From Polaribacter vadi (GTDB lineage Bacteria; Bacteroidota; Bacteroidia; Flavobacteriales; Flavobacteriaceae): a DNA stretch of 64,000 bases. Every line of letters starts with the position of its first letter. The first letter of the stretch is position 1. The stretch lies in the NCBI RefSeq assembly GCF_001761365.1, contig NZ_CP017477.1, positions 1,448,501 through 1,512,500 of the forward strand, given 5' to 3'. Of this stretch, positions 15,020 through 47,471 are shown one piece after another. The notes under the pieces were generated by a model that was given only the letters and a program-made list of their open reading frames with translations, was not told the origin of the DNA and searched no databases. Both the position numbers and the translations under genes were made by a program.

Positions 15020-15093
15020 TAAATCGTCTTTTTTCTTGCTTATCTAACTTTTATAATTATATTCGAAAATTAGAAAAAACAGAGAAATAAAGA

Positions 15094-15309: not shown

Positions 15310-15312
15310 ATT

Positions 15313-15996: not shown

Positions 15997-16010
15997 TTTA
16001 AACTTTACAT

Positions 16011-16484: not shown

Positions 16485-16489
16485 TAGTT

Positions 16490-16657
16490 ATGTTTGGATT
16501 GTTCAAAAAGAAATCTGAAGCTGAAAAACTTCAAGAAAAATATAAGAAGTTAATGGAAGAAGGTTTTAAACTGCAATCTTCTAATAGAAGCGATAGTGAT
16601 CAAAAGTATTTAGAAGCTGACAATGTTTTGAAAGAAATTGAAGCGTTAAAAAAATAA
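16490..16657 (+). CDS. Lacal_2735-family small protein
   Basis: A 55-aa protein beginning FGLFKKKSEAEKLQEKYKKL and ending EADNVLKEIEALKK, the pattern of the Lacal_2735 family of Flavobacteriia. It is a charged two-helix coiled-coil-like protein of unknown function. It starts five bases after the peroxidase stop and ends seven bases before tspO, so it is part of the operon. Confidence 0.8.
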   Translation: MFGLFKKKSEAEKLQEKYKKLMEEGFKLQSSNRSDSDQKYLEADNVLKEIEALKK

Positions 16658-16664
16658 TCCTATA

Positions 16665-17126: not shown

Positions 17127-17138
17127 CCTTATTAAAAA

Positions 17139-17924: not shown

Positions 17925-17932
17925 TTAATCCA

Positions 17933-18400: not shown

Positions 18401-18416
18401 CTAAAACTATATATCT

Positions 18417-18465
18417 TGCCACGAACTCACGAGTTTAAACTTTATAAATTCTTGAATTCGTGGCA
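18417..18465. repeat. Hairpin of the interspersed CACGAA(A/T)TCACGA type
   Basis: TGCCACGAACTCA and TGAATTCGTGGCA form a 13-bp inverted repeat with one mismatch around a 23-base loop. The CACGAA-TCACGA wording resembles interspersed repeats common in flavobacterial genomes. It lies between the SRPBCC gene and phrB and may act as a weak terminator. Confidence 0.5.
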
Positions 18466-18500
18466 TTTTAATATCTTTAAATTAAACAACTTAAACAGCA

Positions 18501-19805
18501 ATGGAAACTACGATTAATATATTTTGGTTTAGAAGAGATTTACGTTTAGATGATAATGTAGGCTTTTACAATGCATTAAAATCCGAACATAAAGTTTTAC
18601 CTATTTTTATTTTTGATGAAGAAATTCTATCAAAATTACCAAAAGATGATGCTAGAGTTACTTTTATTTTTGATACGCTTCAAGAAATGAGAAACGAACT
18701 GCAAGAAAAATATGGAAGCAGTATTGCCATGCTAAAAGGAAAGCCAAAAGATGTTTTTAAGCAATTAGTAAAAGATCATACCATTGACACTGTTTTTACA
18801 AATCGAGATTATGAGCCGTATGCAAAAGAAAGAGATGCCAAAATAGCAACACTTTTATCTAAAGAAAACATCAATTTTAAAACATTTAAAGATCAAGTTA
18901 TTTTTGAGAAACATGAAGTTGTAAAAAGCGATGGAGATCCTTACAAAGTGTACACTCCATATATGAAATTATGGAAAAAAGAATTTGAAAAAATCGATTT
19001 AAAAATTTATTACACGAATCAATTTTTAGACAATTTAATTGAGAATTCAAGATTAACAAATGTATCACTTGCTGATATTGGTTTTAAAAAATCAACGCAA
19101 AAAATAGCAGCTTTTACAGTTACACCAACGTTAATTCAGGAATATGAAGACACTCGTAATTTTCCTGCACAAGATTCTACCTCTAAATTAGGACCACATT
19201 TGCGTTTTGGAACTGCAAGTATTAGAAAAATGATAAAAAAAGCTATTGCAGAAAAAAACGAAATCTTTTGGCAAGAATTAATTTGGAGAGAATTTTTCGC
19301 GCAAATTCTTTGGCATTTTCCTCATACAAAAGATAAAGCTTTTAAAAGCAAATACGATAGAATTGAATGGAGAAACAACGAACACGAATTTAAAAAATGG
19401 TGTAATGGAGAAACTGGATATCCTTTAGTAGATGCAGGAATGCGTCAATTAAACGAAACTGGCTTTATGCACAACAGAATTAGAATGTTGGTGGGTAGTT
19501 TTTTATGCAAACATTTGTTGATAGATTGGAGATGGGGAGAAGCCTATTTCGCAGAAAAATTACACGATTATGAGATGGCAAGCAATGTTGGGAATTGGCA
19601 ATGGGTTGCAGGTTCTGGAGTAGATGCATCACCTTATTTTAGAATTTTTAACCCAACAACGCAAATTAAAAAGTTCGATAAAGATTTAAAATACATCAAA
19701 AAGTGGGTTCCCGAATTTCAAGAATTAACCTACGCTAAAGAAATCGTAGATCATAAAGAAGCAAGAGAACGTTGCTTAAAAGTATATAAAGATGCTGTTA
19801 GTTAA
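18501..19805 (+). CDS. phrB: Deoxyribodipyrimidine photolyase (canonical CPD type)
   Basis: A 434-aa class I-like CPD photolyase. The antenna domain starts INIFWFRRDLRLDDNVGF. The FAD domain has KLGPHLRFGTASIRKM, WQELIWREFFAQILWHFP, GYPLVDAGMRQLNETGFMHNRIRM and NWQWVAGSGVDASPYFRIFNP, with the standard Asn of RIFNP beside FAD N5. It repairs cyclobutane pyrimidine dimers with blue light. It is the fourth photolyase paralogue within 11 kb but is separated from the others by a hairpin, so it may have its own promoter (TATCTTTA at 18472-18479 is near-consensus). A terminator follows at 19912. Confidence 0.95.
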   Translation: METTINIFWFRRDLRLDDNVGFYNALKSEHKVLPIFIFDEEILSKLPKDDARVTFIFDTLQEMRNELQEKYGSSIAMLKGKPKDVFKQLVKDHTIDTVFTNRDYEPYAKERDAKIATLLSKENINFKTFKDQVIFEKHEVVKSDGDPYKVYTPYMKLWKKEFEKIDLKIYYTNQFLDNLIENSRLTNVSLADIGFKKSTQKIAAFTVTPTLIQEYEDTRNFPAQDSTSKLGPHLRFGTASIRKMIKKAIAEKNEIFWQELIWREFFAQILWHFPHTKDKAFKSKYDRIEWRNNEHEFKKWCNGETGYPLVDAGMRQLNETGFMHNRIRMLVGSFLCKHLLIDWRWGEAYFAEKLHDYEMASNVGNWQWVAGSGVDASPYFRIFNPTTQIKKFDKDLKYIKKWVPEFQELTYAKEIVDHKEARERCLKVYKDAVS

Positions 19806-29321: not shown

Positions 29322-31154
29322 ATGGCAAAAAAGATTATTAAAGATTTTTTAGAGGATGTTTTAGATGATTCCATCAAACAGGTTTCTGGTTCTGATGCTG
29401 CATTTTTGTATGCTGAATCGCCTTCAAGCCCTATGCACATTGCAACATTAACTATAGTTGAAGACTCTCTTAATTTCGATGATTTTAGAGCAATTGTCGC
29501 TTCTAAACTGCATTTAATTCCGAAGTTTAGAAAACGCTTGTTAAATGTGCCTATGAATTTAGATTATCCTTATTGGGTTGATGATCCGAATTTCGATTTG
29601 GATTTACACATCAACAGAGTAAAATTACCAAATCCAAGTAATTGGAAAACGTTAAGAGAAATGACTTCTTCCATTTTTAGCAGTCCATTAGATTTACGCA
29701 GACCTTTATGGTCTATGACTTTTATTGAAGGTTTAGACGAAGTTTCTCAAGTACCAAAAGGTTCTGTAGCTGTTGTTTGCAAAGTACATCATGTTATGAT
29801 TGATGGCAGTTCTGGAGTTGGAATTATGGGAATTTTGTTTGATAAAGATTTAAATGACAAAAACAAAGAAATTCCGAAACCAAAACCTTTTGATCCGGAC
29901 GAATTGCCAGATGAATTAAGCTTGTTATTAAAAAGCTCTCAAACCTTTTTTAAAGATCCTTTAAGGATCCCAAAATTGGTGGGTGAAACTGCTTTTTCAT
30001 TTATCAAAGGAAATATACAAACACAATTTAGTTTAAAAAAATCTATAAAAAACACGTTTTCTACACCAAATACTATTTTTAATAACTCTGTGTCTCCTAA
30101 AAGAACTTGGGGAACTGCAATTTTATCTTTCGATAGAATTAACACACTTCGTAAAATAATGAATGTTAGCATTAACGACATTATTTTAACAATTTGTGCA
30201 GGAGGAATTCGAAAATATTTGGCTGAAAAAGAAAAATTACCTGTGCAACCTTTGGTGGCAAATGTGCCAATTTCTATTCGTGTAAAAGGCGAAAAACAGG
30301 AAATGAATAATCAAATTTCTAATATGTTGGTTCGAATTGCAACGCATATTAATGACCCAATTGAACGTTTAGAATATATTCAAGAACAAACCAATAGAGG
30401 CAAAACAAGACATAAAGCTGTGGGTGCAAAAGCATTGGCAAAAATGGCAGATGCTGTTCCTTTTGGCTTGGCAAATTTAGCTGCAGGTTTGTACACAAAA
30501 TATAATATTAAAGAATTTCACAGACCTCCTTTTAATGTGACTATTACCAATGTTCCTGGACCACAAATGCCTTTGTATTTAAGAGGTCATAAAATTTTAT
30601 CCATTTTTGGATTAACTCCAGTTTTAGATGGTTTTGGGTTGATCATTGCTGCTTTTAGTTATAATGGTTTGGTTTCTATAACCACAACTTCGGATGCTAA
30701 AACAATGCCAGATGCAGATAAATTTTCGAGATATATTAGAGAGTCTGCCAACGAATTAGAAGAAATTATTTTAGCAAAAGGCAAGCAAAAAGAGACCACA
30801 AATCCTCAGAAAATTAGAAGTACAGCCTTTTTTACAAACCTTAAAAAGTTTATAAATAGTGATGAAAAAATCAAAAAAAATCATTCGGGTGTCTATGATT
30901 TTGAGTTGACTTTGGGAGAAAATAAAGTGAATTATCAACTAGATATTTCCGAAAAAACAGTTGCTGTTCGCAAGAAAAAAGCAACGAAACCTTTAGTGAA
31001 AATAGAAATTGATGATGAAAATTTACTCAACTTACATAAAAAACAATTATTGCTTGATGAAGTAATGATTCAAGGAAGAATTAAATTGATAGGCACAAAG
31101 AGAAATTCTGATAAATTCTTTAAACTTTTATCACAAGTATTAGAAAATAATTAA
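29322..31154 (+). CDS. Wax ester synthase/diacylglycerol acyltransferase (WS/DGAT) with C-terminal SCP2-like domain
   Basis: A 610-aa protein. Residues 15-475 are a WS/DGAT acyltransferase: SDAAFLYAESPSSPMHIATL at the start, the catalytic HHVMIDG at 156-162, and the late NVTITNVPGPQMPLYLRGH block. Such enzymes esterify fatty alcohols or diacylglycerol with acyl-CoA to make wax esters or triacylglycerol. Residues about 505-608 form an extra domain (YDFELTLGENKVNYQL...KLIGTKRNSDKFFKLLSQVL) that looks like an SCP2 sterol/lipid-carrier domain. The next gene overlaps the stop by one base. It heads the lipid locus; the natural product made is not known. Confidence 0.9.
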   Translation: MAKKIIKDFLEDVLDDSIKQVSGSDAAFLYAESPSSPMHIATLTIVEDSLNFDDFRAIVASKLHLIPKFRKRLLNVPMNLDYPYWVDDPNFDLDLHINRVKLPNPSNWKTLREMTSSIFSSPLDLRRPLWSMTFIEGLDEVSQVPKGSVAVVCKVHHVMIDGSSGVGIMGILFDKDLNDKNKEIPKPKPFDPDELPDELSLLLKSSQTFFKDPLRIPKLVGETAFSFIKGNIQTQFSLKKSIKNTFSTPNTIFNNSVSPKRTWGTAILSFDRINTLRKIMNVSINDIILTICAGGIRKYLAEKEKLPVQPLVANVPISIRVKGEKQEMNNQISNMLVRIATHINDPIERLEYIQEQTNRGKTRHKAVGAKALAKMADAVPFGLANLAAGLYTKYNIKEFHRPPFNVTITNVPGPQMPLYLRGHKILSIFGLTPVLDGFGLIIAAFSYNGLVSITTTSDAKTMPDADKFSRYIRESANELEEIILAKGKQKETTNPQKIRSTAFFTNLKKFINSDEKIKKNHSGVYDFELTLGENKVNYQLDISEKTVAVRKKKATKPLVKIEIDDENLLNLHKKQLLLDEVMIQGRIKLIGTKRNSDKFFKLLSQVLENN

Positions 31155-32095
31155 TGTCGGCGATTACACATACATATCAATCTTTTGATGATCAAACCAT
31201 TTTTTATTATCAATGGAAAGCAAAAGAAAGTGTTCCTTTTAAAGGAATTGTACAGGTTTCTCATGGAATTGGCGAACATGCAGGAAGATATAAATCGATT
31301 GCAAAAAAATTATGTAAACAGGGTTATGAAGTCTATGCAAATGATCATAGAATTCATGGAAAATCATCCAAAAGCAACGAATATTTAGGCTTTTATGATG
31401 GTGAAGATTATTTTTCTGACGCCATAAATGATATGCGAAAACTAACTGAAATCATCAAAAAAGAGCATCCCAATAAAAAAATAATTTTATTAGGTCATAG
31501 CATGGGTTCTTTGTTAAGCAGAGAATATGCTACACTTTATGGTGATGATTTACAGGCGTTAATTTTATCTGGAACAGCTGCTTTTATGAAAGGTTTGGGT
31601 TCATTTGGATTGATAAGTACTGAGTTTTTTAGCAAATTAAATGGACAACATAGAAGTAATGAAATCTTAAAAAACCTATTTTTTCATCAATTTAATAAGT
31701 ATTTTAAACCCAACAGAACAAAGGTAGATTGGATTAGCAGTGATGAAAAACAAGTGGATAAATTCGAAAAAGATCCTTTAAGAATTGAAGATTTTTCTCT
31801 AGGTGTTTTTAGAGATATTTTAAAAGGAACTAAAAAAGTAAGCAAATTAGAAATTTTTGAAATTACGCCTAAAAATTTACCAATTTATATTTTTTCTGGG
31901 GATAAAGATCCTGTTGGAGAAATGGGAAAAGGCGTAAAAAAAGTCGCTAAAAATTACAAAAAAGTTGGTGTGCAAGATGTAACACTAAAATTATACGAAG
32001 GAGGCAGACACGAAATGTTGCATGAAATCAACAGAAATGAAGTAGAAAAAGATTTATTAAAATGGCTAAATGAGCATATTAAAGCCAAAAACTAA
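31154..32095 (+). CDS. Alpha/beta hydrolase, monoacylglycerol lipase-like
   Basis: A 313-aa serine hydrolase. The oxyanion/N-terminal block VSHGIGEHAGRYKSIAKKL and the nucleophile elbow LLGHSMGSLLSREYA are those of monoacylglycerol lipase/lysophospholipase (MGLL) proteins. The Asp is in FSGDKDPVGEMG and the His in GGRHEMLHE. No signal peptide, so it acts in the cytoplasm. It starts on the last base of the WS/DGAT stop and ends three bases before the next hydrolase gene. Likely turns over glycerides made by its neighbours. Confidence 0.9.
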   Translation: MSAITHTYQSFDDQTIFYYQWKAKESVPFKGIVQVSHGIGEHAGRYKSIAKKLCKQGYEVYANDHRIHGKSSKSNEYLGFYDGEDYFSDAINDMRKLTEIIKKEHPNKKIILLGHSMGSLLSREYATLYGDDLQALILSGTAAFMKGLGSFGLISTEFFSKLNGQHRSNEILKNLFFHQFNKYFKPNRTKVDWISSDEKQVDKFEKDPLRIEDFSLGVFRDILKGTKKVSKLEIFEITPKNLPIYIFSGDKDPVGEMGKGVKKVAKNYKKVGVQDVTLKLYEGGRHEMLHEINRNEVEKDLLKWLNEHIKAKN

Positions 32096-32098: not shown

Positions 32099-33259
32099 AT
32101 GGAAAGTAACAAAATAGTATATACAGCTTTTACAAAATTTGCGGTTGCAATTGCAGTTTCTCAAGGAGCAACTTTGCCACAAGCAAAAAAAATTATTACC
32201 AAAAGTTTCGAAAGACATCCTTATTTTAAACACGTTTCAAAAATTATTAAAAAGGTAAAGCTCGACAAGGAAAACTTAAACATTTTAAGCAATCAATGTA
32301 TTTCTATTTGCGAAGATTTTGGACCTGATAGAGATTATATAACCTTAGTGTTGTTATTAGAAAAAATATACAAAAACGAGGAACTTCAAAAAATTGAAAA
32401 AGATACAATTTCGAACATCATCAATAATTTTAAAGTAGAAATAGATAGGATAAATGCAAACATACCTCCTCCTCCACTTTTTAATGTTTTGCTAGAAACT
32501 AGAGCTGTTACAGAATGGACTTCGATGTTTTGGTTGTATCCATTTATTCCGAAACATAAAAGTAAAAAAAGCAAACCTATTTTATTAATGCCACCTTATT
32601 TAGGGAATGACAATTCTACAATTTTTGTAAGAAAATATTTAAAATCGATTGGTTTTAAAACCTATAAATGGGATTTGGGCGTGAATATGATCAACTCAAA
32701 ATCGCTCCCAAAATTGATTGAAAAACTCGATGAAATTTACGAAAAACATCAAGAAAAAGTAAGTTTAGTTGGCTGGAGTGGAGGTGGACTTTTCGCCAAA
32801 ATAATTGCCAACAGATATCCAGAAAAAGTGGAACAATTAATAACCATTGGTTCTCCTGTTTGGGGCGTAAAAAATATGAAAACGCCAATTATTAAAACAT
32901 TAGAGTTTGTGAGAGGTGCTAAATTAAGAGAACGAAATCTGAAATTTATCAAGGAATTAGAAGAAATTCCTAAAGTGCCAATTACGTGTATTTATACAAA
33001 AACAGATGGTTTAATTCCTTGGAAAAACTGTATGGAAGCAGAAACTTTTAGAGATGATATTAAAAATGTAGAAGTTTTTGGAAGCCATTGTGGAATGGGC
33101 GCAAATGCAACTGTTTTGTTAACAGTGGCAAATGCATTGAATTCAAATCTTGAAAAAGTGCAAGAAAAAACAATCATTGAAAAAGTTGAGACGTTGTTTT
33201 ATCCTCAGTTTTGGGAACAAAAAGGAGTATCAAAATTTACTAATTTATTTTTTAATTAG
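32099..33259 (+). CDS. Alpha/beta hydrolase with N-terminal helical domain
   Basis: A 386-aa protein. Residues 1-140 are helical with no recognised family, followed by an alpha/beta hydrolase domain: PILLMPPYLGNDNSTIFVR, the elbow VSLVGWSGGGLFAKIIAN, Asp in YTKTDGLIPW and His in GSHCGMG. Candidate activities are lipase or acyl-transfer, inferred from neighbours. It starts three bases after the first hydrolase and ends three bases before the large acyltransferase gene, so it is surely co-transcribed. Confidence 0.8.
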   Translation: MESNKIVYTAFTKFAVAIAVSQGATLPQAKKIITKSFERHPYFKHVSKIIKKVKLDKENLNILSNQCISICEDFGPDRDYITLVLLLEKIYKNEELQKIEKDTISNIINNFKVEIDRINANIPPPPLFNVLLETRAVTEWTSMFWLYPFIPKHKSKKSKPILLMPPYLGNDNSTIFVRKYLKSIGFKTYKWDLGVNMINSKSLPKLIEKLDEIYEKHQEKVSLVGWSGGGLFAKIIANRYPEKVEQLITIGSPVWGVKNMKTPIIKTLEFVRGAKLRERNLKFIKELEEIPKVPITCIYTKTDGLIPWKNCMEAETFRDDIKNVEVFGSHCGMGANATVLLTVANALNSNLEKVQEKTIIEKVETLFYPQFWEQKGVSKFTNLFFN

Positions 33260-33262: not shown

Positions 33263-36200
33263 ATGGAACACAATTTACAGAACATCATCAAGAATGCTAA
33301 ATTTCAAGAAAAATTAGCTTCAATTGCAGTTGAAGAAAAATTGGAGCTTTCTGAAGTGCAGAAAAAAGGTGCAGCATGTATTGCAGAATTGTATTCGCAA
33401 CAACATCCAATAGCCAATTTGTTGTCTGTAAAAGGGTTTCAATTTATGATGTCTAAAGCTTATAACAATAAGATAGATGTAGATCCTAAAGAAATTAAAA
33501 AATTAATGAAATTGATGCGCCAAAATTCGGTTGCATTTATTTTAACACACAAAACCTATTTAGATACTGTGGTTTTAGTAACCACTTTAGCACAATATGG
33601 CATGCCAATTCCCTATACTTTTGGGGGCATCAATTTAGCCTTTCCTGGCTTTAAACAATTGGGTAAAAATTCGGGTTTAATTTTTATCAGAAGAAGTTTT
33701 AAAGACAACCAAATTTACAAAGCAGCTTTAAGACATTATATTTCTTGTATAATAGAAAATGGCGATCATTTAACCTGGAATATTGAAGGAACACGTTCAA
33801 GAACTGGGAAAATTGTCTATCCACAAATGGGGATTTTAAAATACATTATGGAAGGTGAAAAAGAAAGCACCAGAAATATAAAATACGTTCCTGTATCTAT
33901 TGTCTATGATTTGATTCCAGATGTAAAACAGATGACAGAAGAAGGAAAAGGAGGTGAAAAAAAATCTGAAGATGTAAAAGCATTTGTAAAATATTTTAGA
34001 AAATTAGGCAACGAATATGGCAAAGCTGCCATACGTTTTGGAGAACCTGTAGAAGCAAGTTCGCATCAAAACGCCATTATTCCAGATATTGAAGAAGATA
34101 GTTATTCAGATAAAAATACCTTGCCTCGTTTTGCTTTTGAATTGATTCATAAAGCAAACATGATCACTCCTGTAACCACAGTTTCATTGGTTTGTAATGT
34201 GTTATTGAACAACTTTGCATTGACAAAAAGTGAAATAGAATTCAGTGTTATTAAAATGATGAATTATATTGAACAGCGCAAAAAAGACGTACTAATTGAA
34301 CGTGGAAAAAGTATTGGTGCAGCTGTTCAACAAGCGTTGAATTTATTAAAAAGTTCTGGCATTGTTCAGAAAAATAAAGCAGGTTATAAAACCAAATATA
34401 CATTAGCATCCGCAGAATTTTTACCAGCAACGTATTATGCAAATATGGCATCTGCACATTTGTATCACAGGGCTTTTATAGAAATGGCTTTGGTAAAAAT
34501 TAAAGACGAAAAAGAGAACAGAATTTTATCTTTTTGGGAAGAAATAATGCGCTTGCGTAATTTATTTAAGTTCGAATTTTTCTATACCAATAAACCACAA
34601 TTTAGCTCGGAAATTGAAGCCGAATTAAATTTGTTTGATAAAAACTGGAGAGCGATTATCAATAATCCAGAAGGCGATATTGAGAATCTACTTTCCAAAC
34701 AAGAGTTATTTGTTTCCAAAGGATTGTTATTAATTTATTTAGAAGCCAATAAAGTAGTTTGTAAAACTTTACAATCTTGGGATTTAGAAGACGAATTTGC
34801 AGATGATGAATTTATTGAACTTTGTTTATTTAAAGGCAAAGAATTGCATTGGAAAAACAGAATTAGCAGATTAGATAGTGTTTCTAAACCATTTTTAGTG
34901 AGTGCTTTGCGTTTAGCAAAAAATAGTAAATTAATTCCTGATGATAAAAATATCGATTTTAAAAGGTTAGATATTTGGATGGATTTATTAGATAATTTAA
35001 CCAATCGTTTACATTTTCTACAAGAACTAGAAGCGTTAAATAGCAAAAAAACAAATAAAGAAAATACAGATGATGAAAAAGTGCCTGGTGCAGACAGTGA
35101 ATTTAATACTGTAGATCTTTCTGAAGATGAAGAAGGTCCTCATATTGCAGCATTTTTTGATTTAGACAGAACTTTAATCAATGATTTTTCTGCAAAACAG
35201 TTTGTAAAATCACGTTTTTTAAGTGGTAAATCAACCCCCAAAGAGTTGCTTTCGCAATTTGTAACATTAATCGCTTATGCAATTGGAAATCGTGATTTTG
35301 AAATTTTAACAAAAATATCAGCAACAGGAATTAAAGGAATTTTAGAAAAACAATTTACAGATTTAGGCGAAGAAATTTATCAAGAATATTTAGCATCCAC
35401 AATCTACCCAGAATCTAGAACTTTAATTGCATCGCATTTAGAAAAAGGACACCAAGTAGTTATTATTTCTGCTGCAACTCGTTATCAAGTTACGCCCATT
35501 GCAAATGCGTTAGGTATTACACAAATTTTCTGTACAGAGATGGAAATAAAAAAAGGGAAATTTACAGGCAAAATTTTAGAAATGTGCTGGTCTGAAGGAA
35601 AAGCAAGAGCTGGACGAAAATTTGCAAAAAGCAACCATATAGATTTATCAAAAAGTTTCTTTTATACAGATAGTATTGATGATTTTCCATTATTGGAAAT
35701 TGTGGGGAAACCTATTGCTACCAATCCAGATAATAAACTTTCGCAACTTGCTTTTGAGAACGATTGGAAAATTCTTCGTTTTAAAGAAAACACGAAAAAA
35801 CCTTTGGTAAATGGTTTAAGAACTGGTTTGGCTGCTGCAAGTTTATACCCATCAGCATTAAAAGGAATTGTAAAAGGTACATTATCCATGTCTCAAAGAG
35901 AAGGAATTAACACAACAATTTCTAGTATTGGAGATTTAGGAACTAAATTGGCTGGTTTAGATATTAATGTAAAAGGTAAACATAATTTAGTAGATCATAG
36001 ACCTGCTGTTTTCTGTTTCAATCATCAATCTTCTGCTGACTTTTTTGTCATTTTAAAATTACTAAGAAAAGATGTTACAGGAATCGCAAAAAAAGAATTA
36101 GAAATGACACCTTTTGGACCTATTTTTAAAGCAATGGGTGCTATTTTTATAGATAGATCTGATAAAAAGAAAGCATTAGCTTCTATGAAAAATGCTGCTG

Positions 36201-36502
36201 AAATTCTTAAAAACGGAACTTCTGTAGCAATTGCTCCAGAAGGTACAAGAAGTGGTTGTAAAGAACTAGGTATTTTCAAAAAAGGAGCTTTTCATTTGGC
36301 AATGAAAGCGGGTGTACCAATTGTGCCAATAGTCATTAAAAATGCATATATGGCAATGCCAAAAGGCAGTAAAATGTTTAGTCCAACGCACATAGAAGTG
36401 GTGGTTTTAGATCCTGTTGATACTTCTGAATGGAAACCAAAATTAATAGATTCTTATGTAGAAGAAGTCAGAAATTTGTTTGTAAAAGAGTTAGAAAATT
36501 AA
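33263..36502 (+). CDS. Three-domain GPAT (PlsB-like) - HAD phosphatase - PlsC acyltransferase fusion
   Basis: A 1079-aa protein joining three activities of glycerolipid synthesis. Residues ~1-480 are a glycerol-3-phosphate acyltransferase-like domain with HKTYLD near 95 and WNIEGTRSRTGK near 172. Residues ~625-850 are a HAD-IB phosphatase with AAFFDLDRTLIND near 631 and a late SFFYTDSIDDFPLLE. Residues ~880-1079 are a PlsC/LPLAT domain with FNHQSSADFF near 919 and IAPEGTRSG. Together these could convert glycerol 3-phosphate to phosphatidate and, if the HAD part dephosphorylates it, to diacylglycerol for the WS/DGAT. The order of use is inferred. It precedes gpsA, which makes the starting glycerol 3-phosphate. 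Confidence 0.9.
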   Translation: MEHNLQNIIKNAKFQEKLASIAVEEKLELSEVQKKGAACIAELYSQQHPIANLLSVKGFQFMMSKAYNNKIDVDPKEIKKLMKLMRQNSVAFILTHKTYLDTVVLVTTLAQYGMPIPYTFGGINLAFPGFKQLGKNSGLIFIRRSFKDNQIYKAALRHYISCIIENGDHLTWNIEGTRSRTGKIVYPQMGILKYIMEGEKESTRNIKYVPVSIVYDLIPDVKQMTEEGKGGEKKSEDVKAFVKYFRKLGNEYGKAAIRFGEPVEASSHQNAIIPDIEEDSYSDKNTLPRFAFELIHKANMITPVTTVSLVCNVLLNNFALTKSEIEFSVIKMMNYIEQRKKDVLIERGKSIGAAVQQALNLLKSSGIVQKNKAGYKTKYTLASAEFLPATYYANMASAHLYHRAFIEMALVKIKDEKENRILSFWEEIMRLRNLFKFEFFYTNKPQFSSEIEAELNLFDKNWRAIINNPEGDIENLLSKQELFVSKGLLLIYLEANKVVCKTLQSWDLEDEFADDEFIELCLFKGKELHWKNRISRLDSVSKPFLVSALRLAKNSKLIPDDKNIDFKRLDIWMDLLDNLTNRLHFLQELEALNSKKTNKENTDDEKVPGADSEFNTVDLSEDEEGPHIAAFFDLDRTLINDFSAKQFVKSRFLSGKSTPKELLSQFVTLIAYAIGNRDFEILTKISATGIKGILEKQFTDLGEEIYQEYLASTIYPESRTLIASHLEKGHQVVIISAATRYQVTPIANALGITQIFCTEMEIKKGKFTGKILEMCWSEGKARAGRKFAKSNHIDLSKSFFYTDSIDDFPLLEIVGKPIATNPDNKLSQLAFENDWKILRFKENTKKPLVNGLRTGLAAASLYPSALKGIVKGTLSMSQREGINTTISSIGDLGTKLAGLDINVKGKHNLVDHRPAVFCFNHQSSADFFVILKLLRKDVTGIAKKELEMTPFGPIFKAMGAIFIDRSDKKKALASMKNAAEILKNGTSVAIAPEGTRSGCKELGIFKKGAFHLAMKAGVPIVPIVIKNAYMAMPKGSKMFSPTHIEVVVLDPVDTSEWKPKLIDSYVEEVRNLFVKELEN

Positions 36503-36586: not shown

Positions 36587-37588
36587 ATGAAACTACAAGT
36601 AGGCTTATTAGGTGGTGGTTCTTGGGGAACTACTGTTGCATCATTAACTGCAAAAAATGCAAAAACGATTCTTTGGGCAAGAAATCAAGAAACTGTAGAT
36701 GAAATTAACAATCATCATACAAACGAGAAATATTTACCCGATGCAAAATTAACATCGAGTTTAAGAGCATCAACATCCATAAAAGAAACTGTAGAAGATG
36801 CAGATGTAATTGTAATGGGAGTTCCTGCTCAAGTTTTCAGACAAGTTTTAACAGAAGCAAAACCATATATAAGACCTTGGGTGCCCATTATTAATTTAGC
36901 GAAAGGTTTAGAAATAAGCACAAAAATGCGCATGACAGAAATAATTGAAGAAATTATGCCTGGACATCCTGCTGGCGTTTTAACAGGACCAAATTTGGCG
37001 AAAGAAATCCATTTTGGAAATGCTGCAGCTGCTGTGATTGCTATGGTTGACAAAACAATCGCCTCAAAATTACAAGATGTTTTTAGTTCTGGATTATTCA
37101 GAGTGTATACAAATTCTGACGTAATTGGTTGCGAATTAGGAGGTGCTTTAAAAAATATAATAGCCATTGCAACAGGAATGGGTGATGGAGCAAATGCTGG
37201 TGATAATACACGTGCTGCAATTATTACAAGAGGTTTAGCAGAATTAACAAGGTTGGGAATTGCTATGGGTGGCAAACAACGTACTTTTTATGGCTTGGCA
37301 GGAATGGGCGATTTAGTTGCAACTTGTTCTTCTGATAAAAGTAGAAATCATCATGTTGGATTTCAATTAGGAAGAGGAAAAAATTTAGAGCAAATAATTT
37401 CTGAAATGAACGAAGTTGCAGAAGGTGTAAAAACTGCAAAAGTTGTTGTAGAACTCGCCAAAGAATATAAAGTTGATATGCCAATATCCAAAGAAATTTA
37501 TAAGGTTTTGTATGAAGGAAATTCCGTAAATGATGCTTTTAAAGGTTTATTAAGATATGAAGTTGGTTCTGAAAAAGAACCAGGATAG
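36587..37588 (+). CDS. gpsA: NAD(P)+-dependent glycerol-3-phosphate dehydrogenase
   Basis: A 333-aa enzyme that reduces dihydroxyacetone phosphate to sn-glycerol 3-phosphate. The cofactor motif VGLLGGGSWGTTVASL, the segment GVLTGPNLAKEI, and the catalytic ELGGALKNIIAIATGMGDG and GLAGMGDLVATC are all intact. It lies 84 bp after the acyltransferase gene, giving substrate for the lipid operon. The spacer holds a small hairpin (TTCTCAT-gaaa-ATGAGAA). Confidence 0.95.
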   Translation: MKLQVGLLGGGSWGTTVASLTAKNAKTILWARNQETVDEINNHHTNEKYLPDAKLTSSLRASTSIKETVEDADVIVMGVPAQVFRQVLTEAKPYIRPWVPIINLAKGLEISTKMRMTEIIEEIMPGHPAGVLTGPNLAKEIHFGNAAAAVIAMVDKTIASKLQDVFSSGLFRVYTNSDVIGCELGGALKNIIAIATGMGDGANAGDNTRAAIITRGLAELTRLGIAMGGKQRTFYGLAGMGDLVATCSSDKSRNHHVGFQLGRGKNLEQIISEMNEVAEGVKTAKVVVELAKEYKVDMPISKEIYKVLYEGNSVNDAFKGLLRYEVGSEKEPG

Positions 37589-38120: not shown

Positions 38121-38924
38121 ATGTCAGACTTTCTTCAGCAATTAAAAGATTTAAATTCCTTTTATGACAATGCAACAATTCGCATTGAAACATTAGGGAA
38201 TTTTGTGGTTTGGAGAAATCAACAAAAAATTGATCACAAAGAATGGGGAAGAGATAAAACCATTCAGTTGTTGCAATATTTAGTTTCCAACAGACAAAGG
38301 AATTCGCTTCATAAAGAAAAAATTATGGACGGTCTTTGGGAAGATTGGAACGATCGCGATTTTAAAGTGGCTTTGCATGGCATTAATAAAGCTCTAGAAC
38401 CTGAAAGACCTTCAAGAACTGAACCTGAATTTATTATTAGGCAAGGAATAAGTTATCAAATAGATTTAGAAAAAGTTTGGATTGATGTGGAAGCTCTTGA
38501 AAAATATATAATTATTGGTAATGAAGCTTTTAAAAATGATAACTCTATCGCAAAAATTGCTTACAAAAAAGCAATTGAACTCTATAAAGGCTCTTATTTA
38601 CCTAACAGAATTTACGAAGATTGGACCTCTGAAGAAAGAGAAAAAACACAACTCTTAATTTTGGGAGCTTACATTACTTTAGCAGAAATTTTGGTTGATG
38701 AAAATCCTTTAGAAAGCATTCGTTTATCACAAAAAGCTTTGGCAATAGATTCCACTTGGGAAGATGCTTACAGGATTCAGATGAAAGCCTATATTGTGAA
38801 AGGAAACAGACCACAAGCTATTAAAACCTATATGAAATGTGAGGTTATTTTAGAGGAAGAATATGGAATTTCTCCTTTGCCTGAAACTAAAAAGTTATTG
38901 AAAGAAATTGAGGCGATTTCGTAA
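38121..38924 (+). CDS. SARP/BTAD-family transcriptional regulator
   Basis: A 267-aa regulator. Residues 17-113 are an OmpR-type winged helix as in SARP proteins (IETLGNFVVWRNQQKID, WGRDKTIQLLQYLVSNRQRN, DFKVALHGINKALEP, FIIRQGISYQIDL). Residues 118-265 are a bacterial transcriptional activation domain (TPR-like helices with DVEALEKYI, YEDWTSEEREKTQLL, DSTWEDAYRIQMKAY, EEYGISPLPETKKLLKEI). SARPs of actinomycetes bind heptamer direct repeats just upstream of the -10 box. Two such arrays lie before the next genes at 39347 and 39673, so it probably activates the phasin-like genes. Homologues in Bacteroidota are little studied. Confidence 0.85.
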   Translation: MSDFLQQLKDLNSFYDNATIRIETLGNFVVWRNQQKIDHKEWGRDKTIQLLQYLVSNRQRNSLHKEKIMDGLWEDWNDRDFKVALHGINKALEPERPSRTEPEFIIRQGISYQIDLEKVWIDVEALEKYIIIGNEAFKNDNSIAKIAYKKAIELYKGSYLPNRIYEDWTSEEREKTQLLILGAYITLAEILVDENPLESIRLSQKALAIDSTWEDAYRIQMKAYIVKGNRPQAIKTYMKCEVILEEEYGISPLPETKKLLKEIEAIS

Positions 38925-39346: not shown

Positions 39347-39381
39347 TGTAACTCATTTGCAACTCTCAAAGTTTAAGTTTG
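39347..39381 (+). promoter_or_regulatory. Promoter A with heptamer direct repeats (predicted SARP site)
   Basis: TGTAACT at 39347-39353, CATT, then TGCAACT at 39358-39364: two heptamers with an 11-bp period. After a 9-bp spacer comes TAAGTTTG at 39374-39381, a consensus TAnnTTTG -7 box. The gene starts at 39413. The arrangement, including the spacer length, repeats exactly in promoter B. Confidence 0.65.
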
Positions 39382-39412
39382 CATCATAATTAAACAATAA
39401 AGGTAAAAAAAG

Positions 39413-39670
39413 ATGAAAACTATATCAGCAAAAGACATAAAGAAGAATACTATCAAATTAAATAATATGGCCTTAGAAACTACAGAAAAAGTAGTTTTAA
39501 AGTCAATTGATAAAGCCGAAGATTTACAAGAATTCACAGCAAAATCTATAAAGAAAACATTAGATTTTTCTGAAAAACAACAAGGTAAATTATTTAACAA
39601 TCTTGAAAAAAGCAAGAAAATGATTTGGTCTAATGTAAATAAAGGATTAGGCTTTTTTAGCAAAAACTAG
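39413..39670 (+). CDS. Phasin-like small protein
   Basis: An 85-aa helical, Lys-rich protein with phasin-like amphipathic helices (MALETTEKVVLKSIDKAEDLQEFTAKS). It shares the wording ETTEKV, the central 'AEDLQEFTAK' type segment and a late hydrophobic end with the proteins at 39743 and 40669. Phasins coat storage granules of PHA or neutral lipid. No membrane segment. It has its own promoter (A). Function is inferred from composition, paralogues and the neighbouring lipid genes. Confidence 0.65.
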   Translation: MKTISAKDIKKNTIKLNNMALETTEKVVLKSIDKAEDLQEFTAKSIKKTLDFSEKQQGKLFNNLEKSKKMIWSNVNKGLGFFSKN

Positions 39671-39672
39671 TT

Positions 39673-39707
39673 TGTAACTCATTTGTAACTTGCGTATTGT
39701 AAGTTTG
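39673..39707 (+). promoter_or_regulatory. Promoter B with heptamer direct repeats (predicted SARP site)
   Basis: TGTAACT at 39673-39679, CATT, TGTAACT at 39684-39690, 9-bp spacer, then TAAGTTTG at 39700-39707. The heptamers are identical here, and a weak third (AAAAACT) lies 11 bp upstream at 39662. Confidence 0.68.
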
Positions 39708-39742: not shown

Positions 39743-40588
39743 ATGGCAACTAAAAAGTCAAAATCAAAAAAAGATAACAAATTAGGAAAAGCAAAAGCAA
39801 TCGTTATGAAAATAAATAGCGATTTAATTAATGCTTCTTTCAACGCAATTGAAACTACTGTAAAAACAGGAGAAAAATGGCAAAAATTAACTGCAAAATT
39901 AGTTAAGAAAGCAGAGCCGTTAACAAAACAACAAATTAATATGGTTGTTGAAACTGCAGAATCTATTAAAGGTCAGTTAGAAAATAGTACTGAACGTTTA
40001 AAAACATTGGTAGGTTATGATCCTAAAATGATGGAAAACGCAAAGAAAATGGTAAAAGAAAATCCTTTAGTTGAAAAAGCTGAAGAGATGAAAGATAAGT
40101 TTGAAAAAGAAGTAGCTAATAATAAATTAGTAAAAAAGGCAGAAAAAATGTCTGACAAACTTAAAAAAACTATTTCTTCTACCATTGATGAAGCAAAAGA
40201 AAAAATTGAAGAATATACAGAAGATGCTTTAAATACTGTAAACGAGAAGTTGGATGATGTGAAACCATCAAAAACAAAAAAAACTACAAAGAAAAAAGTA
40301 GTTAAAAAAGAAGTTGTTATTGAAGAGAAAATTGTGGTTGAAAAAACGGAGGTAATTAACGACTTAAAAGTGATCAAAGGAATTGGACCTGTTTTAGAAA
40401 AATCTTTAAACGAATTGAACGTAACTTCTTACGAGCAAATTTCTAAAATGACTTTGAAAAATATGGGGTTATTATTAACAGATGCAGGAATTAATGCAAA
40501 AATTTACGATTTATCTGGTTGGAAAACGCAAGCTAAATTAGCTTTAAAAGGCGATATGGAAGCTGTGAAAAATTGGGAAAGAAAATAA
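39743..40588 (+). CDS. Phasin-like protein with C-terminal helix-hairpin-helix domain
   Basis: A 281-aa protein. Residues 20-100 are phasin-like (SFNAIETTVKTGEKWQKLTAKLVKKAEPL). Residues ~100-200 are a Lys/Glu-rich helical linker, with a KTKKTTKKKVVKK stretch like the PhaF/histone-type tails that bind DNA. Residues 215-280 are a helix-hairpin-helix region (LKVIKGIGPVLEKSLNELN, then MGLLLTDAGINAKIYDLSGW). This may tie a granule-coat protein to nucleic acid or to a partner. It is controlled by promoter B. No signal peptide. Phasin and HhH calls are from pattern; granule binding is inferred. Confidence 0.72.
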   Translation: MATKKSKSKKDNKLGKAKAIVMKINSDLINASFNAIETTVKTGEKWQKLTAKLVKKAEPLTKQQINMVVETAESIKGQLENSTERLKTLVGYDPKMMENAKKMVKENPLVEKAEEMKDKFEKEVANNKLVKKAEKMSDKLKKTISSTIDEAKEKIEEYTEDALNTVNEKLDDVKPSKTKKTTKKKVVKKEVVIEEKIVVEKTEVINDLKVIKGIGPVLEKSLNELNVTSYEQISKMTLKNMGLLLTDAGINAKIYDLSGWKTQAKLALKGDMEAVKNWERK

Positions 40589-40668: not shown

Positions 40669-40962
40669 ATGAAAACAAAAAATATAGATACTCAAAAAAT
40701 TACTGCTAAAGTAAATAATGCTTTAGATACTGCTAAAAAATCGTTGAACAAAGCAAATTATTTTGCTTTAAACACAACAGAGGAAGTAGTTACAGAAACA
40801 ATTACAATTGCTAGTCAATGGCAAAAAGTTACTGAAAAAGCTTTAAAAGGTGGAGTTCAATTATTGGAGAATCAACAAAATTTAATTTTTGATTCTTTAG
40901 AAAGCTACAAGAAACATATCATAAACGGAAAAAAGAAATTTAGCAAAGTTTTTGCTTCATAG
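40669..40962 (+). CDS. Phasin-like small protein
   Basis: A 97-aa amphipathic helical protein with the same plan as the two preceding genes (NYFALNTTEEVVTETITIASQWQKVTEKALKGGVQLLENQQ). SQWQKVTEKALK resembles GEKWQKLTAKLVK of the 281-aa protein. It lacks the repeat-containing promoter and is probably read through from promoter B, 80 bp downstream of the previous stop. A strong terminator follows at 40981. Likely a third granule-coat protein. Confidence 0.65.
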   Translation: MKTKNIDTQKITAKVNNALDTAKKSLNKANYFALNTTEEVVTETITIASQWQKVTEKALKGGVQLLENQQNLIFDSLESYKKHIINGKKKFSKVFAS

Positions 40963-41081: not shown

Positions 41082-41744
41082 ATGAAAAAAAAGAAAAATA
41101 GCTCCAAATTAGACATCCTAACTTTATACATGGATTTGGTTTCTGAACAAAAATCGAAACCTGATGATGTTAGTGATTTTTGCGAACAAGTAAATTTAGA
41201 TGAAGACAATTTCTACGAACATTTTAAGTCTTTAAAAAAAGTTGAAAAGACAATTTTCAATGAACTTTTTAAAAATTCTTTAGAGGTTTTAAATGAAAGT
41301 GAAGAGTTTCTTGCTTTTGATGGAAAAAACAAATTACTAAGTCTTTATTTTACATTTTTCGAAAACTTAACACTTAACAGAGAGTATGTAGAAGTGGTTT
41401 TAAAAGGATGTAAAAATCAACTAAAATCTTACAAAAGTTTATCTAGTTTAAAAAAGAGTTTTATCGATTTTGTAGATAGTTTGGCCTTGTCTGATAGTAT
41501 TTTACCAATTGATGGTTTAGAGAAAATACAAACAGGTTTTATAAACCATTCTGCTTGGGTTCAAATGCTCATCACCATTAAATTTTGGTTAGAAGATGAA
41601 TCTGAATCTTTTGAAAAAACAGATATTTTTATAGAAAAATCAATCAATACCAGTTTCGATATCATAGAGAACAAATTCCTAAAAAATGTTTTTGATTTAG
41701 GTAAGTTTGTTTACAAAGAAAAGTTTCAAAAAAACACGGATTAA
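41082..41744 (+). CDS. TetR-like regulatory protein
   Basis: A 220-aa helical protein of TetR-family size. The N-terminal HTH is degenerate (LDILTLYMDLVSEQKSKPDDVSDFCEQVNLDEDNFYEHFKSLK keeps the YEHF turn), and the C-terminus has ligand-domain-like helices. It starts a short two-gene unit with the ABC1 kinase, whose ATG is three bases after its stop. In Bacteroidota this pair commonly occurs with phasin or PHA genes. Ligand and targets unknown. Confidence 0.7.
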   Translation: MKKKKNSSKLDILTLYMDLVSEQKSKPDDVSDFCEQVNLDEDNFYEHFKSLKKVEKTIFNELFKNSLEVLNESEEFLAFDGKNKLLSLYFTFFENLTLNREYVEVVLKGCKNQLKSYKSLSSLKKSFIDFVDSLALSDSILPIDGLEKIQTGFINHSAWVQMLITIKFWLEDESESFEKTDIFIEKSINTSFDIIENKFLKNVFDLGKFVYKEKFQKNTD

Positions 41745-43746: not shown

Positions 43747-44066
43747 TGAGTTTTTTCGAACGTTTAAAAAGTAATTCCGTCTTTAAAATCCTTACAAATA
43801 TTTTTGTAATGATTTTAGTGCCTTTTATTATTTGGATGCTTTTTTTTGATGAAAACTCCTATTTAATTCATCGAAAATTTAATACAGAAATAGAGGATTT
43901 AGAAAGCACGATTTCTTTCTACGAAGATAAAATTTCGAATGATAAGGAAACCATCAAAAAATTGCAAGATTCTTTAGAATTAGAACGTTTTGCGAGAGAA
44001 CAATATTTAATGAAAAAAGAAAACGAAGATATTTATATAATTGAATTTGATACCATAAAAAAATAA
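43746..44066 (+). CDS. FtsB/DivIC-type septum formation initiator
   Basis: A 106-aa bitopic membrane protein: short cytoplasmic N-terminus, one hydrophobic segment (FKILTNIFVMILVPFIIWMLFF), then a coiled coil with IEDLESTISFYEDKISNDKETIKKLQ and the terminal ERFAREQYLMKKENEDIYII typical of FtsB/DivIC. It acts in the divisome with FtsL/FtsQ partners. It overlaps udk and the mutA start by one base each. Confidence 0.88.
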   Translation: MSFFERLKSNSVFKILTNIFVMILVPFIIWMLFFDENSYLIHRKFNTEIEDLESTISFYEDKISNDKETIKKLQDSLELERFAREQYLMKKENEDIYIIEFDTIKK

Positions 44067-45415
44067 TGAGTAACTTTCTATTTGATGAATTTGAACCTGT
44101 ATCTGCAAATGCTTGGAAACAAAAAATTCAAGTAGATTTAAAAGGTGCAGATTATAATGAAACCTTGCTTTGGCAAACTGATGAAGGGATTACTGTAAGA
44201 CCTTTTTATACGAAAGAAGATAGGACTAATTCACAAATAAATCTACCTAAAAAAGGCTATAACATTTGCCAAACTATTTTTATAGATGATGAAAAAATAG
44301 CCAATTCTTTAGCTGTTGATGCCTTAAAAAGAGGTGCAAATGCTATTCAATTCAAAGCTGTTAAAAAATTCGATTATAAAACTGTTCTAAATAAAATTGA
44401 TGTAAAAAAAACAACAATTTACTTCAAACTTTCTTTTTTAAATGCTGATTTTCAAATAGAACTTTCTAATTTTTGTAATTCAGAAAACACCTTTTTTCAA
44501 ACAGATATTATTGGCAATTTAGGAAAGATTGGTAATTGGTTTATCAACTTAAAAGAAGACCATAAACAATTAGATAAAATTATTTCAGCAACTCATAATT
44601 GTATTTCAATTTCTGGAGATTTATACCAAAATGCTGGCGCTAATTTAAGCCAACAATTGGCATATAGTTTAGCACATGCAAATGAATATCTAAATTATTT
44701 TGGTAAAGAAGTAGCTTCTAAAATTCACTTTAATTTTTCAGTTGGCAGCAATTACTTTTTTGAAATTGCAAAATTAAGAGCTTTTCGTATTTTATGGGAA
44801 TCGCTTTTAAATGAATATGATGTAAAAAATGTAGAGGCTCATATTTTTACACAACCAAGTTTACGTAACAAAACTATTTATGATTATAACGTAAATATGT
44901 TGCGAACCACCTCTGAATGCATGAGTGCAATTTTAGGAGGTTCAAACACAATTTCTAATGTTTCTTATGATGAAATTTATCATAAATCAAATGAATTTGG
45001 AGAACGAATTTCAAGAAATCAACTCCTAATTTTACAGCAAGAAAGTTACTTAAAAGAAGCGCAAAATTTTGCAGATGGCGCTTATTATATTGAAACAATT
45101 ACCAATCAATTAGCAGAAAAAGCGTTGGTCATTTTTCAACAAATAGAAAAAGCTGGTGGATTTTTACATCAATTGAAAGCAGGAATCATCCAAAGAAAAA
45201 TTCAAGAAAGTGCTTCAAAAGAAGACGAAAATTTCAATGATAAAAAAATTGTTTTATTAGGAACAAATATGCAAATCAACAAAGCTGATACAATGAAGCA
45301 AGATTTGGAATTGTATCCTTTTGTAAAACAACGAAATATCAAAACAATCATTACTCCAATTATCAGAAAACGTCTTTCTGAAACTGTTGAAAAAGAACGT
45401 TTAGACAATGAGTAG
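44066..45415 (+). CDS. mutA: Methylmalonyl-CoA mutase, small (beta) subunit
   Basis: A 449-aa subunit that lacks the full cobalamin-binding domain and forms the heterodimer with the next gene product. Family wording includes [28 protein letters not shown] and [19 protein letters not shown]. It overlaps mutB by eight bases. Together they convert succinyl-CoA and methylmalonyl-CoA, part of propionate metabolism in Bacteroidota. Confidence 0.93.
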
Positions 45416-47471
45416 AAAAGATGTTTCAAATATAAAATTAGCGAAAAGTGCAAAGCCTAATACAAAAAGCTTTCAGCACGAAGATTTCGTTGCTGGAATT
45501 GCTCCGAATTTAAGAGGTCCATATTCAACAATGTACGTTCGTAGACCTTGGACAATTAGGCAATATGCAGGTTTTTCTACTGCAGAAGAAAGCAATGCTT
45601 TTTATAGAAGAAATTTAGAAGCTGGGCAAAAAGGATTGTCAGTTGCTTTTGATTTAGCCACTCACAGAGGGTATGATTCTGATCACGAACGTGTGCAAGG
45701 AGATGTTGGTAAAGCTGGTGTTGCTATAGATTCTGTGGAAGATATGAAGGTTTTGTTTGATCAAATTCCTTTGGATAAAATGTCGGTTTCTATGACTATG
45801 AATGGTGCAGTTTTACCCATTTTAGCTTTTTATATTGTTGCAGCAGAAGAACAAGGTGTTGCTCCTGAATTATTATCAGGAACTATTCAAAATGATATTT
45901 TAAAGGAGTTTATGGTACGAAATACCTACATCTATCCTCCTGCTCCATCTATGAAAATTATTGCTGATATTTTTGAATATACTAGCAATAAAATGCCAAA
46001 ATACAATTCGATTTCAATTTCTGGATATCATATGCAAGAAGCAGGAGCTACTGCAGAAATTGAATTGGCATATACGTTAGCTGATGGTTTAGAATACATT
46101 AAAAAAGGAATTGAAACAGGAATGGATATTGATGCTTTTGCACCAAGATTATCGTTCTTTTGGGCAATTGGCATGGATCATTTTACAGAAATTGCCAAAT
46201 TAAGAGCTGCAAGAATGTTATGGTCCAAAATTGTAAAACAATTCCATCCAAAAAACCAAAAATCGTTAGCTTTAAGAACACATTGCCAAACAAGTGGTTG
46301 GTCTTTAACTGAGCAAGATCCTTTTAATAACATTGCCAGAACTACTATTGAAGCAATGGCTGCCGTTTTTGGAGGCACTCAAAGTTTACATACAAATGCA
46401 TTGGATGAAGCAATTGCTTTACCAACAGATTTTTCTGCAAGAATTGCTAGAAATACACAAATATTTTTACAGCAAGAAACCCATATTACAAAAACAGTAG
46501 ATCCTTGGGCTGGCAGTTATCATGTTGAAAAATTAACGGAAGATATTGCTAATAAAGCTTGGGAATTAATCAAAGAAGTAGAAGATTTAGGAGGAATGAC
46601 CAAAGCTATTGAAAAGGGAATTCCGAAGTTACGTATTGAAGAAGCTGCTGCAAAAAAACAAGCAAAAATTGATAGTGGCCAAGATGTAATTGTTGGTGTA
46701 AATAAATACAAACTAAAACAAGAAGATCCTTTACATATTTTAGAAGTTGATAATGAAGCTGTTCGTAAATCTCAAATTGAACGTTTAAATCAACTAAAAG
46801 CATCAAGAAATTCAGCAGAAGTTGAAAAATGTTTAGTAAATTTAACCAATGCTGCAAAATCGGGTGAAGAAAATCTACTTGATTTAGCTGTAAAAGCAGC
46901 AAAGAAAAGAGCTACTTTAGGTGAAATATCTGATGCTTTAGAAGTTGTTTTTGGCAGACATAAGGCTGTGACTAAAACCATATCTGGTGTGTATAGTAAA
47001 GAGATAAAAGACGATAAATTATTCAAAAAAGCATCTGAATTAGCAGATAAATTTGCTGAATTAGAAGGAAGACGTCCAAGAATTATGATTGCCAAATTAG
47101 GGCAAGATGGTCATGATAGAGGTGCAAAAGTAGTAGCAACTGGATATGCAGATCTAGGTTTTGATGTTGATATTGGACCACTTTTTCAAACACCAGAAGA
47201 AGCTACAAAACAAGCTGTAGAAAATGATGTGCATATTTTAGGAATTTCCTCTTTAGCTGCTGGGCATAAAACTTTAGTTCCTCAAGTAATTGCAGAACTT
47301 AAAAAACACGGACGAGAAGATATTATGGTGATTGTGGGTGGTGTAATTCCTTCACAAGATTATCAATTTTTATTCGATGCTGGTGCTGTTGGTATTTTTG
47401 GTCCTGGAACTAAAATTGCGCAAGCTGCTATCGATTTAATTACGATTTTAATTGATAGTGTAGTTGAGTAG
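45408..47471 (+). CDS. mutB: Methylmalonyl-CoA mutase, large (alpha) subunit
   Basis: A 687-aa catalytic subunit. The N-terminal TIM barrel has [20 protein letters not shown] and [21 protein letters not shown]. The C-terminal B12-binding domain has [20 protein letters not shown] (the DxHxxG motif, near residue 565-573) and the late [17 protein letters not shown]. It is a complete cobalamin-dependent mutase and needs an external supply of the cofactor or salvage. Confidence 0.97.

Follow-up and report, generated by a model that had tools for sequence, protein, structure and literature searches.

The window analysed here is a 64,000-nucleotide stretch of the Polaribacter vadi genome (contig NZ_CP017477.1, positions 1,448,501 to 1,512,500). 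It contains a gene cluster with two promoters that carry heptameric direct repeats, promoter A and promoter B, and with a gene for a 267-residue regulator that contains a BTAD domain. Upstream of the repeat sites, on one strand and in this order, are genes for a wax ester synthase/diacylglycerol acyltransferase (WS/DGAT), two hydrolases, a GPAT-HAD-LPAAT fusion, GpsA, a 170-residue protein here termed coil170, and the BTAD regulator; 3′ of the sites are three phasin-like genes and genes for a TetR_C_23 protein and an ABC1 kinase (Table 1). Our analysis indicates that the regulator, a small SARP, very probably activates the phasin-like genes, as coat genes for neutral-lipid droplets, through the repeat sites.

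Two promoters share one layout of heptameric direct repeats

Promoter A reads TGTAACT CATT TGCAACT CTCAAAGTT TAAGTTTG and promoter B reads TGTAACT CATT TGTAACT TGCGTATTG TAAGTTTG, giving the common layout TGTAACT-CATT-TGYAACT-N9-TAAGTTTG with an 11-bp period. An earlier reading of the window from its letters (the sequence-only reading) had claimed that the two promoters agree in period and in the 9-bp gap to the box, and the agreement is exact. A weak third repeat, AAAAACT, is present upstream of the promoter B heptamers, at 39662-39668. Loose matches to the heptamer pair are unremarkable (14 in the window at up to three mismatches, versus a shuffle mean of 19). In the whole genome of 3,809,314 bases, the pair has 104 matches with no more than two mismatches, versus 40 for a reversed control pattern; six matches have one mismatch and two are exact, at promoters A and B only. 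The full pattern including the -7 box has nine genome sites at up to three mismatches (two exact, one with two mismatches, and six with three), versus four for the control, and its exact form is expected 0.00017 times per genome from the base composition of the window. The genome scan for the full site that the sequence-only reading had proposed thus returns promoters A and B as the only exact matches in 3.81 Mb. A sigma-70-style promoter scan, with a model that does not cover Bacteroidota promoters, gave nothing above shuffles.

The repeats resemble the sites of SARPs, which are defined as heptameric direct repeats that overlap the -35 region of target promoters (PMC10972967, PMC10936776; here and below, citations refer to passages of the papers named). 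The same features, with an 11-bp period, are found at the presumed targets here. In SARP promoters, the direct repeats are 11 or 22 bp apart, and the 3′ repeat is 8 bp from the -10 element (PMC10936776); spacers of 4-15 bases and sites with three repeats are also described (PMC10972967). In particular, the two 11-bp repeats bound by AfsR span -40 to -19, and the SARP dimer contacts both the box and sigma region 4 (PMC10936776). Flavobacterial TAnnTTTG boxes are located at -12 to -5 (PMC6847099, PMC9723704). On that numbering, with an inferred start position, the repeats of promoters A and B would span -39 to -18, one base from the AfsR repeats.

The regulator has the predicted fold of a small SARP

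The sequence-only reading had placed a BTAD gene directly upstream of the promoters, and the gene is real: its product matches PF03704 at 47.9 bits (cut-off 22.1) and is the only protein in the genome to match that family at E ≤0.01. The AlphaFold2 model of the protein has a predicted local distance difference test (pLDDT) score of 93.1, and its closest structural matches are AfsR and EmbR, over nearly the full length. Specifically, the model has an N-terminal OmpR-type winged helix joined to the BTAD domain as in AfsR and EmbR, the arrangement by which a protein is assigned to the SARPs. By its modelled fold, the 267-residue protein is a small SARP, and it is the predicted cognate activator of promoters A and B. 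Relatives of the protein already carry the database names 'AfsR/SARP family transcriptional regulator' or 'SAPR family response regulator', and the family label is therefore not new. The protein departs from the usual SARP, which belongs to actinomycetes and to secondary metabolism, in being from Bacteroidota and in a lipid-storage cluster; the departure is one of range and role, not of fold.

Regulator and site co-occur across genomes

Among 147 relatives, a SARP orthologue is present in 18, and with one mismatch allowed the full pattern occurs in precisely these 18 (35 sites, versus two control matches), with two sites in each genome except the incomplete G038, which has one. A protein search of 397 genomes of the family yielded 12 matches, comprising 11 at at least 63% identity and one remote match (28% identity, in a 1131-residue frame of G226) that was not counted as an orthologue; the exact pattern is present in exactly the 11 orthologue-bearing genomes. 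The two samples overlap by three genomes and together make up 541, all from the same family or order. An orthologue is present in 28 of these, each of which has one or more exact sites, and the other 513 contain no exact site. Four genomes (G224, G317, G471, and G152) with a single one-mismatch site each were counted as being without an exact site.

Spacing and downstream genes are conserved across 80 loci

A scan of named genomes with a SARP alignment gave 88 confirmed loci, of which the best 80 were compared. These span Polaribacter, Tenacibaculum, Aquimarina, Ulvibacter, Winogradskyella, Lacinutrix, Lutibacter, Muricauda, Croceivirga, other Flavobacteriaceae, Saprospiraceae, and Lewinella. 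Sites at up to two mismatches number 117, in 65 loci; exclusion of five sites that precede coil170 (loci L130-L134) from the logo and the target count left 112 sites in 60 loci. The consensus of the 112 sites is TGYAACTCATYTGYAACT-N9-TAtgTTTGYA, and its spacing is rigid: the gap between heptamers is 4 in 105 sites, with every other value from 0 to 24 occurring at most once, and the gap to TANNTTTG is 9 in 94. One period further upstream, the sites show traces of a third, degenerate heptamer (mean of 2.83 of 7 matches, versus 1.96-2.36 in other registers; at least five matches in 13 sites). The next open reading frame (ORF) matches a phasin-like protein of the window at 111 of the 112 sites (BLASTP E ≤2.5e-6). 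It starts 23-49 bases past the box at 104 sites, 115-125 bases past it at six (upstream members of tandem pairs), and 243 bases past it at one; at the remaining site no ORF was called and the contig ends. Conversely, a phasin-like match is present in 61 loci, of which 60 have a local site and one (L138) has a site elsewhere in the genome. Polaribacter filamentus is represented by two contigs with the SARP block (L071 and L072), one of which could stem from duplication in the assembly.

With the repeats invariant, there is no TTTG at -33, and G stands at -9 in 63 of the 112 boxes, a base that is virtually absent from that position in F. johnsoniae promoters (PMC6847099); for these reasons the core promoter looks weak and activator-dependent.

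The sites can also persist with the target gene away from the regulator gene. Whole genomes were searched for 18 loci, comprising 14 of the 15 without a local site and four of the five with only a coil170-preceding site; L132 was not included, and L080 was left out as an apparent duplicate of G075, whose sites were already counted. The pattern differed from that used for the 147 relatives in having CA fixed in the spacer, a box T freed, and two mismatches allowed. Sites were found in 17 of the 18 genomes, 22 in total versus two control matches; three of these sites come from genomes counted before (L072 is apparently of the same strain as L071, and the site of L085 is at the same place as that of G038). 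In G075, a single contig carries the SARP gene and, about 31 kb away, the two sites; many of the assemblies are metagenome-assembled genomes (MAGs) with short contigs, which limits estimates of the physical distance between site and SARP gene. Of the observations that the sequence-only reading had named as counting against it, two were looked for here and not seen: absence of the pair from relatives that keep both genes, and its spread to unrelated promoters. The site is present in all 28 regulator-bearing genomes of the 541 (one MAG outside that sample is described below), and 20 of the 22 sites precede phasin-like ORFs, the other two preceding a DUF3336-type gene. The latter are extra sites in two genomes, G545 and G552 (L235 and L236), where the domain assignment rests on 105.6 bits for a piece of the L235 copy and on similarity by eye for the L236 copy. 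The DUF3336 domain is known from triacylglycerol lipases, and the extra sites could add a lipase to the regulon in these two genomes.

Proposed mechanism and points against it

In the proposed mechanism, two SARP subunits would sit next to each other on the pair of 11-bp units TGYAACTCATY-TGYAACT, this pair would take the place of the -33 element, and the bound SARP would help the primary sigma factor to initiate at the TAnnTTTG box 9 bp downstream. The two phasin-like genes would be switched on, and their products would coat the droplets of triacylglycerol or wax ester that the adjacent WS/DGAT cluster makes. Binding of the SARP to the repeats, activation as the direction of control, and coating of droplets are the steps that we infer. 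What sequence and modelling establish for the SARP reading is how the sites are built and rigidly spaced, the predicted fold of the regulator, its co-occurrence with the sites, and which genes lie behind them, including where site and target gene persist together elsewhere in the genome.

Several points weigh against this interpretation. The 3′ heptamer is rigidly 9 bp, rather than the 8 bp of SARP promoters, from the -10-type box, and this Bacteroidota TAnnTTTG box is not the same element as the -10 element. The -33 element is weak in general (PMC6847099), which tempers the significance of the missing TTTG. The regulator has 17-18% sequence identity to AfsR, the Pfam winged-helix model scores 14.3 bits on it (cut-off 26.2), a single-sequence search of solved structures with it gave no match, and a profile search of solved structures gave chiefly TPR proteins, with AfsR at E 0.062; the SARP assignment is therefore carried by the fold comparison. 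The 28 regulator-bearing genomes are not 28 independent events, because SARP, coil170, phasins, and sites are largely inherited together, and one MAG outside the sample of 541 (G543), the exception in the search of 18, has the SARP and no site found in its genome. The 281-residue target scores below cut-off with every phasin model (48.6 bits versus 250 for NCBIfam PhaH NF045508, 19 versus 28.8 for Pfam Phasin PF05597, and 14.3 for NCBIfam TIGR01837), for which reason it is termed phasin-like only; it also scores below cut-off with HHH_5 (14.2 versus 27), and a search of viral contigs found no relative of it. Finally, in five Lewinella/Saprospiraceae loci a variant site of the type TGTAAC...GTGTAACTGAATT stands before coil170-SARP instead of before a phasin gene (L130 5330, L131 9356, L132 4213, L133 9356, and L134 2531).

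The variant sites of these five loci include a partial third unit in four, and a divergent WS/DGAT match is located opposite. They possibly reflect autoregulation. In the window, no heptamer pair precedes 29322 or 37601, where only single TGCAACT copies are present, and autoregulation is therefore not claimed there.

The direction of control is a separate question. Repression of the phasin promoters by the SARP, or repression combined with activation, would be compatible with a box that covers the whole -39 to -18 region and has a parallel in MLDSR, the Rhodococcus lipid-droplet regulator, which both represses and activates its promoter (PMC5504291). We consider it distinctly unlikely, given that the SARPs described in PMC10972967 and PMC10936776 are activators and that the core promoter looks weak unaided, as judged by a cross-species comparison with F. 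johnsoniae.

Alternative readers of the repeats

The companion gene coil170 shares its distribution with the SARP gene, and co-occurrence alone therefore cannot single out the SARP. A tblastn match to coil170 is present in all 80 SARP loci; at the ORF level, coil170 is upstream of SARP in 79 of 79, with a gap of -23 to 841 bp; and among the 147 relatives it is present in the same 18. The repeats might thus be read by another factor, or might represent a variant of the core promoter that is simply carried along with the lipid cluster. We consider both quite improbable: coil170 and two homologues match no Pfam family above cut-off, so that no DNA-binding family is indicated; the period, number, and distance of the repeats from the -10-type box are near those of SARP sites; and exact sites are absent from the 513 regulator-free genomes, which presumably share the primary sigma factor.

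The coil170 protein has a strongly conserved N-terminal region (SFMVRF...QWRG...HVQ.G) followed by predicted helices, and its model is of low confidence (pLDDT 57.9). More speculatively, SARP and coil170 may together form a droplet-occupancy sensor, in which coil170, partly helical and perhaps phasin-like, would hold or release SARP according to the bare droplet surface, turning the coat genes on as oil accumulates. Such a sensor, which we put forward tentatively and judge to be on the unlikely side, would parallel the PhaR titration circuit with an activator at its centre and would be common to Flavobacteriaceae and Saprospiraceae.

The TetR_C_23 protein is the other candidate reader in the cluster. 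It adjoins the phasin-like genes, a TetR-type protein, PhaD, controls phasin genes in Pseudomonas (PMC9049629), and orthologues at at least 66% identity are present in 15 of the 18 site-bearing relatives. Its distribution does not follow that of the sites. Homologues are present in 82 of the 147 relatives, 64 of which have no site at up to one mismatch, and the protein of the window has no tblastn match in 27 of the 65 site-bearing locus stretches. In G078, the TetR gene is broken (L210, 3952-4611; three tblastn pieces with internal stops), yet SARP, sites, and phasins are present; G075 and G038 keep sites and have no close orthologue (41% and 48% identity, respectively). Conversely, two site-free genomes, G047 and G070, retain the TetR protein (67%), a phasin homologue (37-39%), and the ABC1 kinase (88-89%). 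SARP and coil170 are absent from both, no WS/DGAT is present in the 17-18 kb around the block (G047 is 83% complete), and no heptamer or TAnnTTTG is present in the 350 bases before the phasin homologue. In addition, the two halves of the site repeat in the same direction and form no palindrome. The TetR protein was rejected as reader on distribution, the sites following the SARP instead, and we regard its being the reader as scarcely credible.

The lipid cluster and the nature of the predicted coat

The WS/DGAT scores 404.6 bits with TIGR02946 (curated cut-off 309.95) and has the PF03007 and PF06974 domains, which places it in that family, and we read the cluster as a triacylglycerol or wax-ester storage cluster. 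The sequence-only reading had called the promoter targets granule-coat genes, implying polyhydroxyalkanoate (PHA) granules. A genome search with PhaC_N, which does not cover class III PHA synthases, found no match when relaxed to E 10 (as a control, PhaC_N matched two of 14 control genomes, over cut-off in one). Because of the WS/DGAT, GPAT/LPAAT, and lipase-type genes and the lack of a PhaC_N match, the coat is predicted to be one for neutral-lipid droplets, and we correct the earlier description to this extent. The weak scores with phasin models would suit PHA granules; with no PhaC_N match, with WS/DGAT matches in 69 of the 80 loci, and with two extra sites before DUF3336-type genes, a PHA-granule coat is very improbable.

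Table 1. Features of the cluster, with positions in the window and the evidence for each
Feature	Position	Strand	Evidence
WS/DGAT with SCP2 domain	29322..31154	+	TIGR02946, PF03007, PF06974, PF02036
Alpha/beta hydrolase, lipase-like	31154..32095	+	PF12146, 171.6 bits
Second alpha/beta hydrolase	32099..33259	+	PF02089, PF07819, barely above cut-off
GPAT-HAD phosphatase-LPAAT fusion	33263..36502	+	PF19277, PF12710, PF01553
Glycerol-3-phosphate dehydrogenase GpsA	36587..37588	+	PF01210, PF07479
coil170, 170 aa, conserved N-terminal region then predicted helices	37601..38113	+	Upstream of SARP in loci examined
Predicted small SARP regulator, 267 aa, N-terminal winged helix and BTAD	38121..38924	+	PF03704, AlphaFold2 model, AfsR/EmbR fold matches
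Promoter A	39347..39381	+	Heptamers TGTAACT 39347-39353 and TGCAACT 39358-39364, 9-bp gap, TAAGTTTG -7 box 39374-39381
Phasin-like protein, 85 aa, predicted promoter A target	39413..39670	+	ORF; homologues after sites in relatives
Promoter B	39673..39707	+	Heptamers TGTAACT 39673-39679 and TGTAACT 39684-39690, 9-bp gap, TAAGTTTG -7 box 39700-39707
Phasin-like protein, 281 aa, helix-hairpin-helix-like tail, predicted promoter B target	39743..40588	+	Sub-cut-off phasin scores; homologues after sites
Phasin-like protein, 97 aa, downstream of second target	40669..40962	+	ORF; resembles phasin-like ORFs following sites in relatives
TetR-type protein (TetR_C_23)	41082..41744	+	PF17931, 123.6 bits

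Upstream of the lipid cluster, at 9589-19805, is a group of several genes that appear to be of photolyase/cryptochrome type. In G047 and G070, which lack the lipid block, genes of this kind are found on the flanks of the phasin-TetR block. After the cluster, at 44066-47471, are two genes that presumably encode methylmalonyl-CoA mutase-like subunits; the first of the pair remains syntenic in G047 and G070.

Comparison with known systems

WS/DGAT proteins of similar length, some with SCP2, are described from Polaribacter, Muricauda, Ulvibacter, Winogradskyella, Lacinutrix, and other Bacteroidota, and the neighbouring acyltransferase and hydrolase have already been remarked on, in a paper that calls neutral-lipid accumulation in Bacteroidota unexplored (PMC10351704). 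The word 'transcriptional' does not occur in the main text of that paper, and its single passage on 'phasin' concerns Pseudomonadota. A partial survey of the open literature found neither a SARP circuit in Bacteroidota nor a regulator of Bacteroidota neutral lipids, and the SARP literature examined (including passages of PMC10972967 and PMC10936776) concerns actinomycetes and their antibiotics. In Bacteroidota, a dedicated two-promoter droplet-coat regulon appears to be run by a small SARP whose promoter geometry is almost that of the actinomycete systems. The circuit offers a testable handle on the control of oil storage in marine flavobacteria and a natural setting in which to ask whether a SARP can adapt a sigma factor as divergent as that of Bacteroidota. 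With no exact site in any of the 513 regulator-free genomes, the motif is sufficiently specific to mark the regulon in genome mining.

The closest known system is AfsR at the afsS promoter of Streptomyces coelicolor. The two share the predicted two-domain fold over nearly the full length, but the 267-residue protein has neither the NOD nor the TPR sensor domains of AfsR, and its identity to AfsR is low, as given above. The targets of EmbR of Mycobacterium tuberculosis differ from those predicted here. EmbR, unlike the present protein, also carries an FHA domain (PMC10936776). The afsS promoter and the promoters of the window are alike in having two 11-bp direct repeats that overlap -35, at positions that would agree to within one base, and a core promoter that is, or here looks, weak (PMC10936776 for afsS); they differ in the heptamer, in the Bacteroidota TAnnTTTG box, and in the targets, predicted here to be coat genes for lipid storage in place of afsS and antibiotic genes. 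MLDSR of Rhodococcus jostii is likewise a dedicated regulator of a lipid-droplet surface protein, MLDS, but it has a predicted XRE-type helix-turn-helix, binds a 16-bp palindrome, is encoded in the operon of its target, and is held back by sequestration on droplets (PMC5504291). The PhaR/PhaP and PhaD/PhaI-PhaF circuits of PHA producers also provide dedicated control of storage-granule coat genes, but there PhaD is TetR-like, PhaR is a repressor that binds polyhydroxybutyrate (PHB) granules, and the stored material is PHA, not neutral lipid (PMC9049629). In comparison with these systems, a SARP acting with heptamer repeats is already known, while the phylum, the sigma partner, the target genes, and the constant companion coil170 are new within the literature searched.
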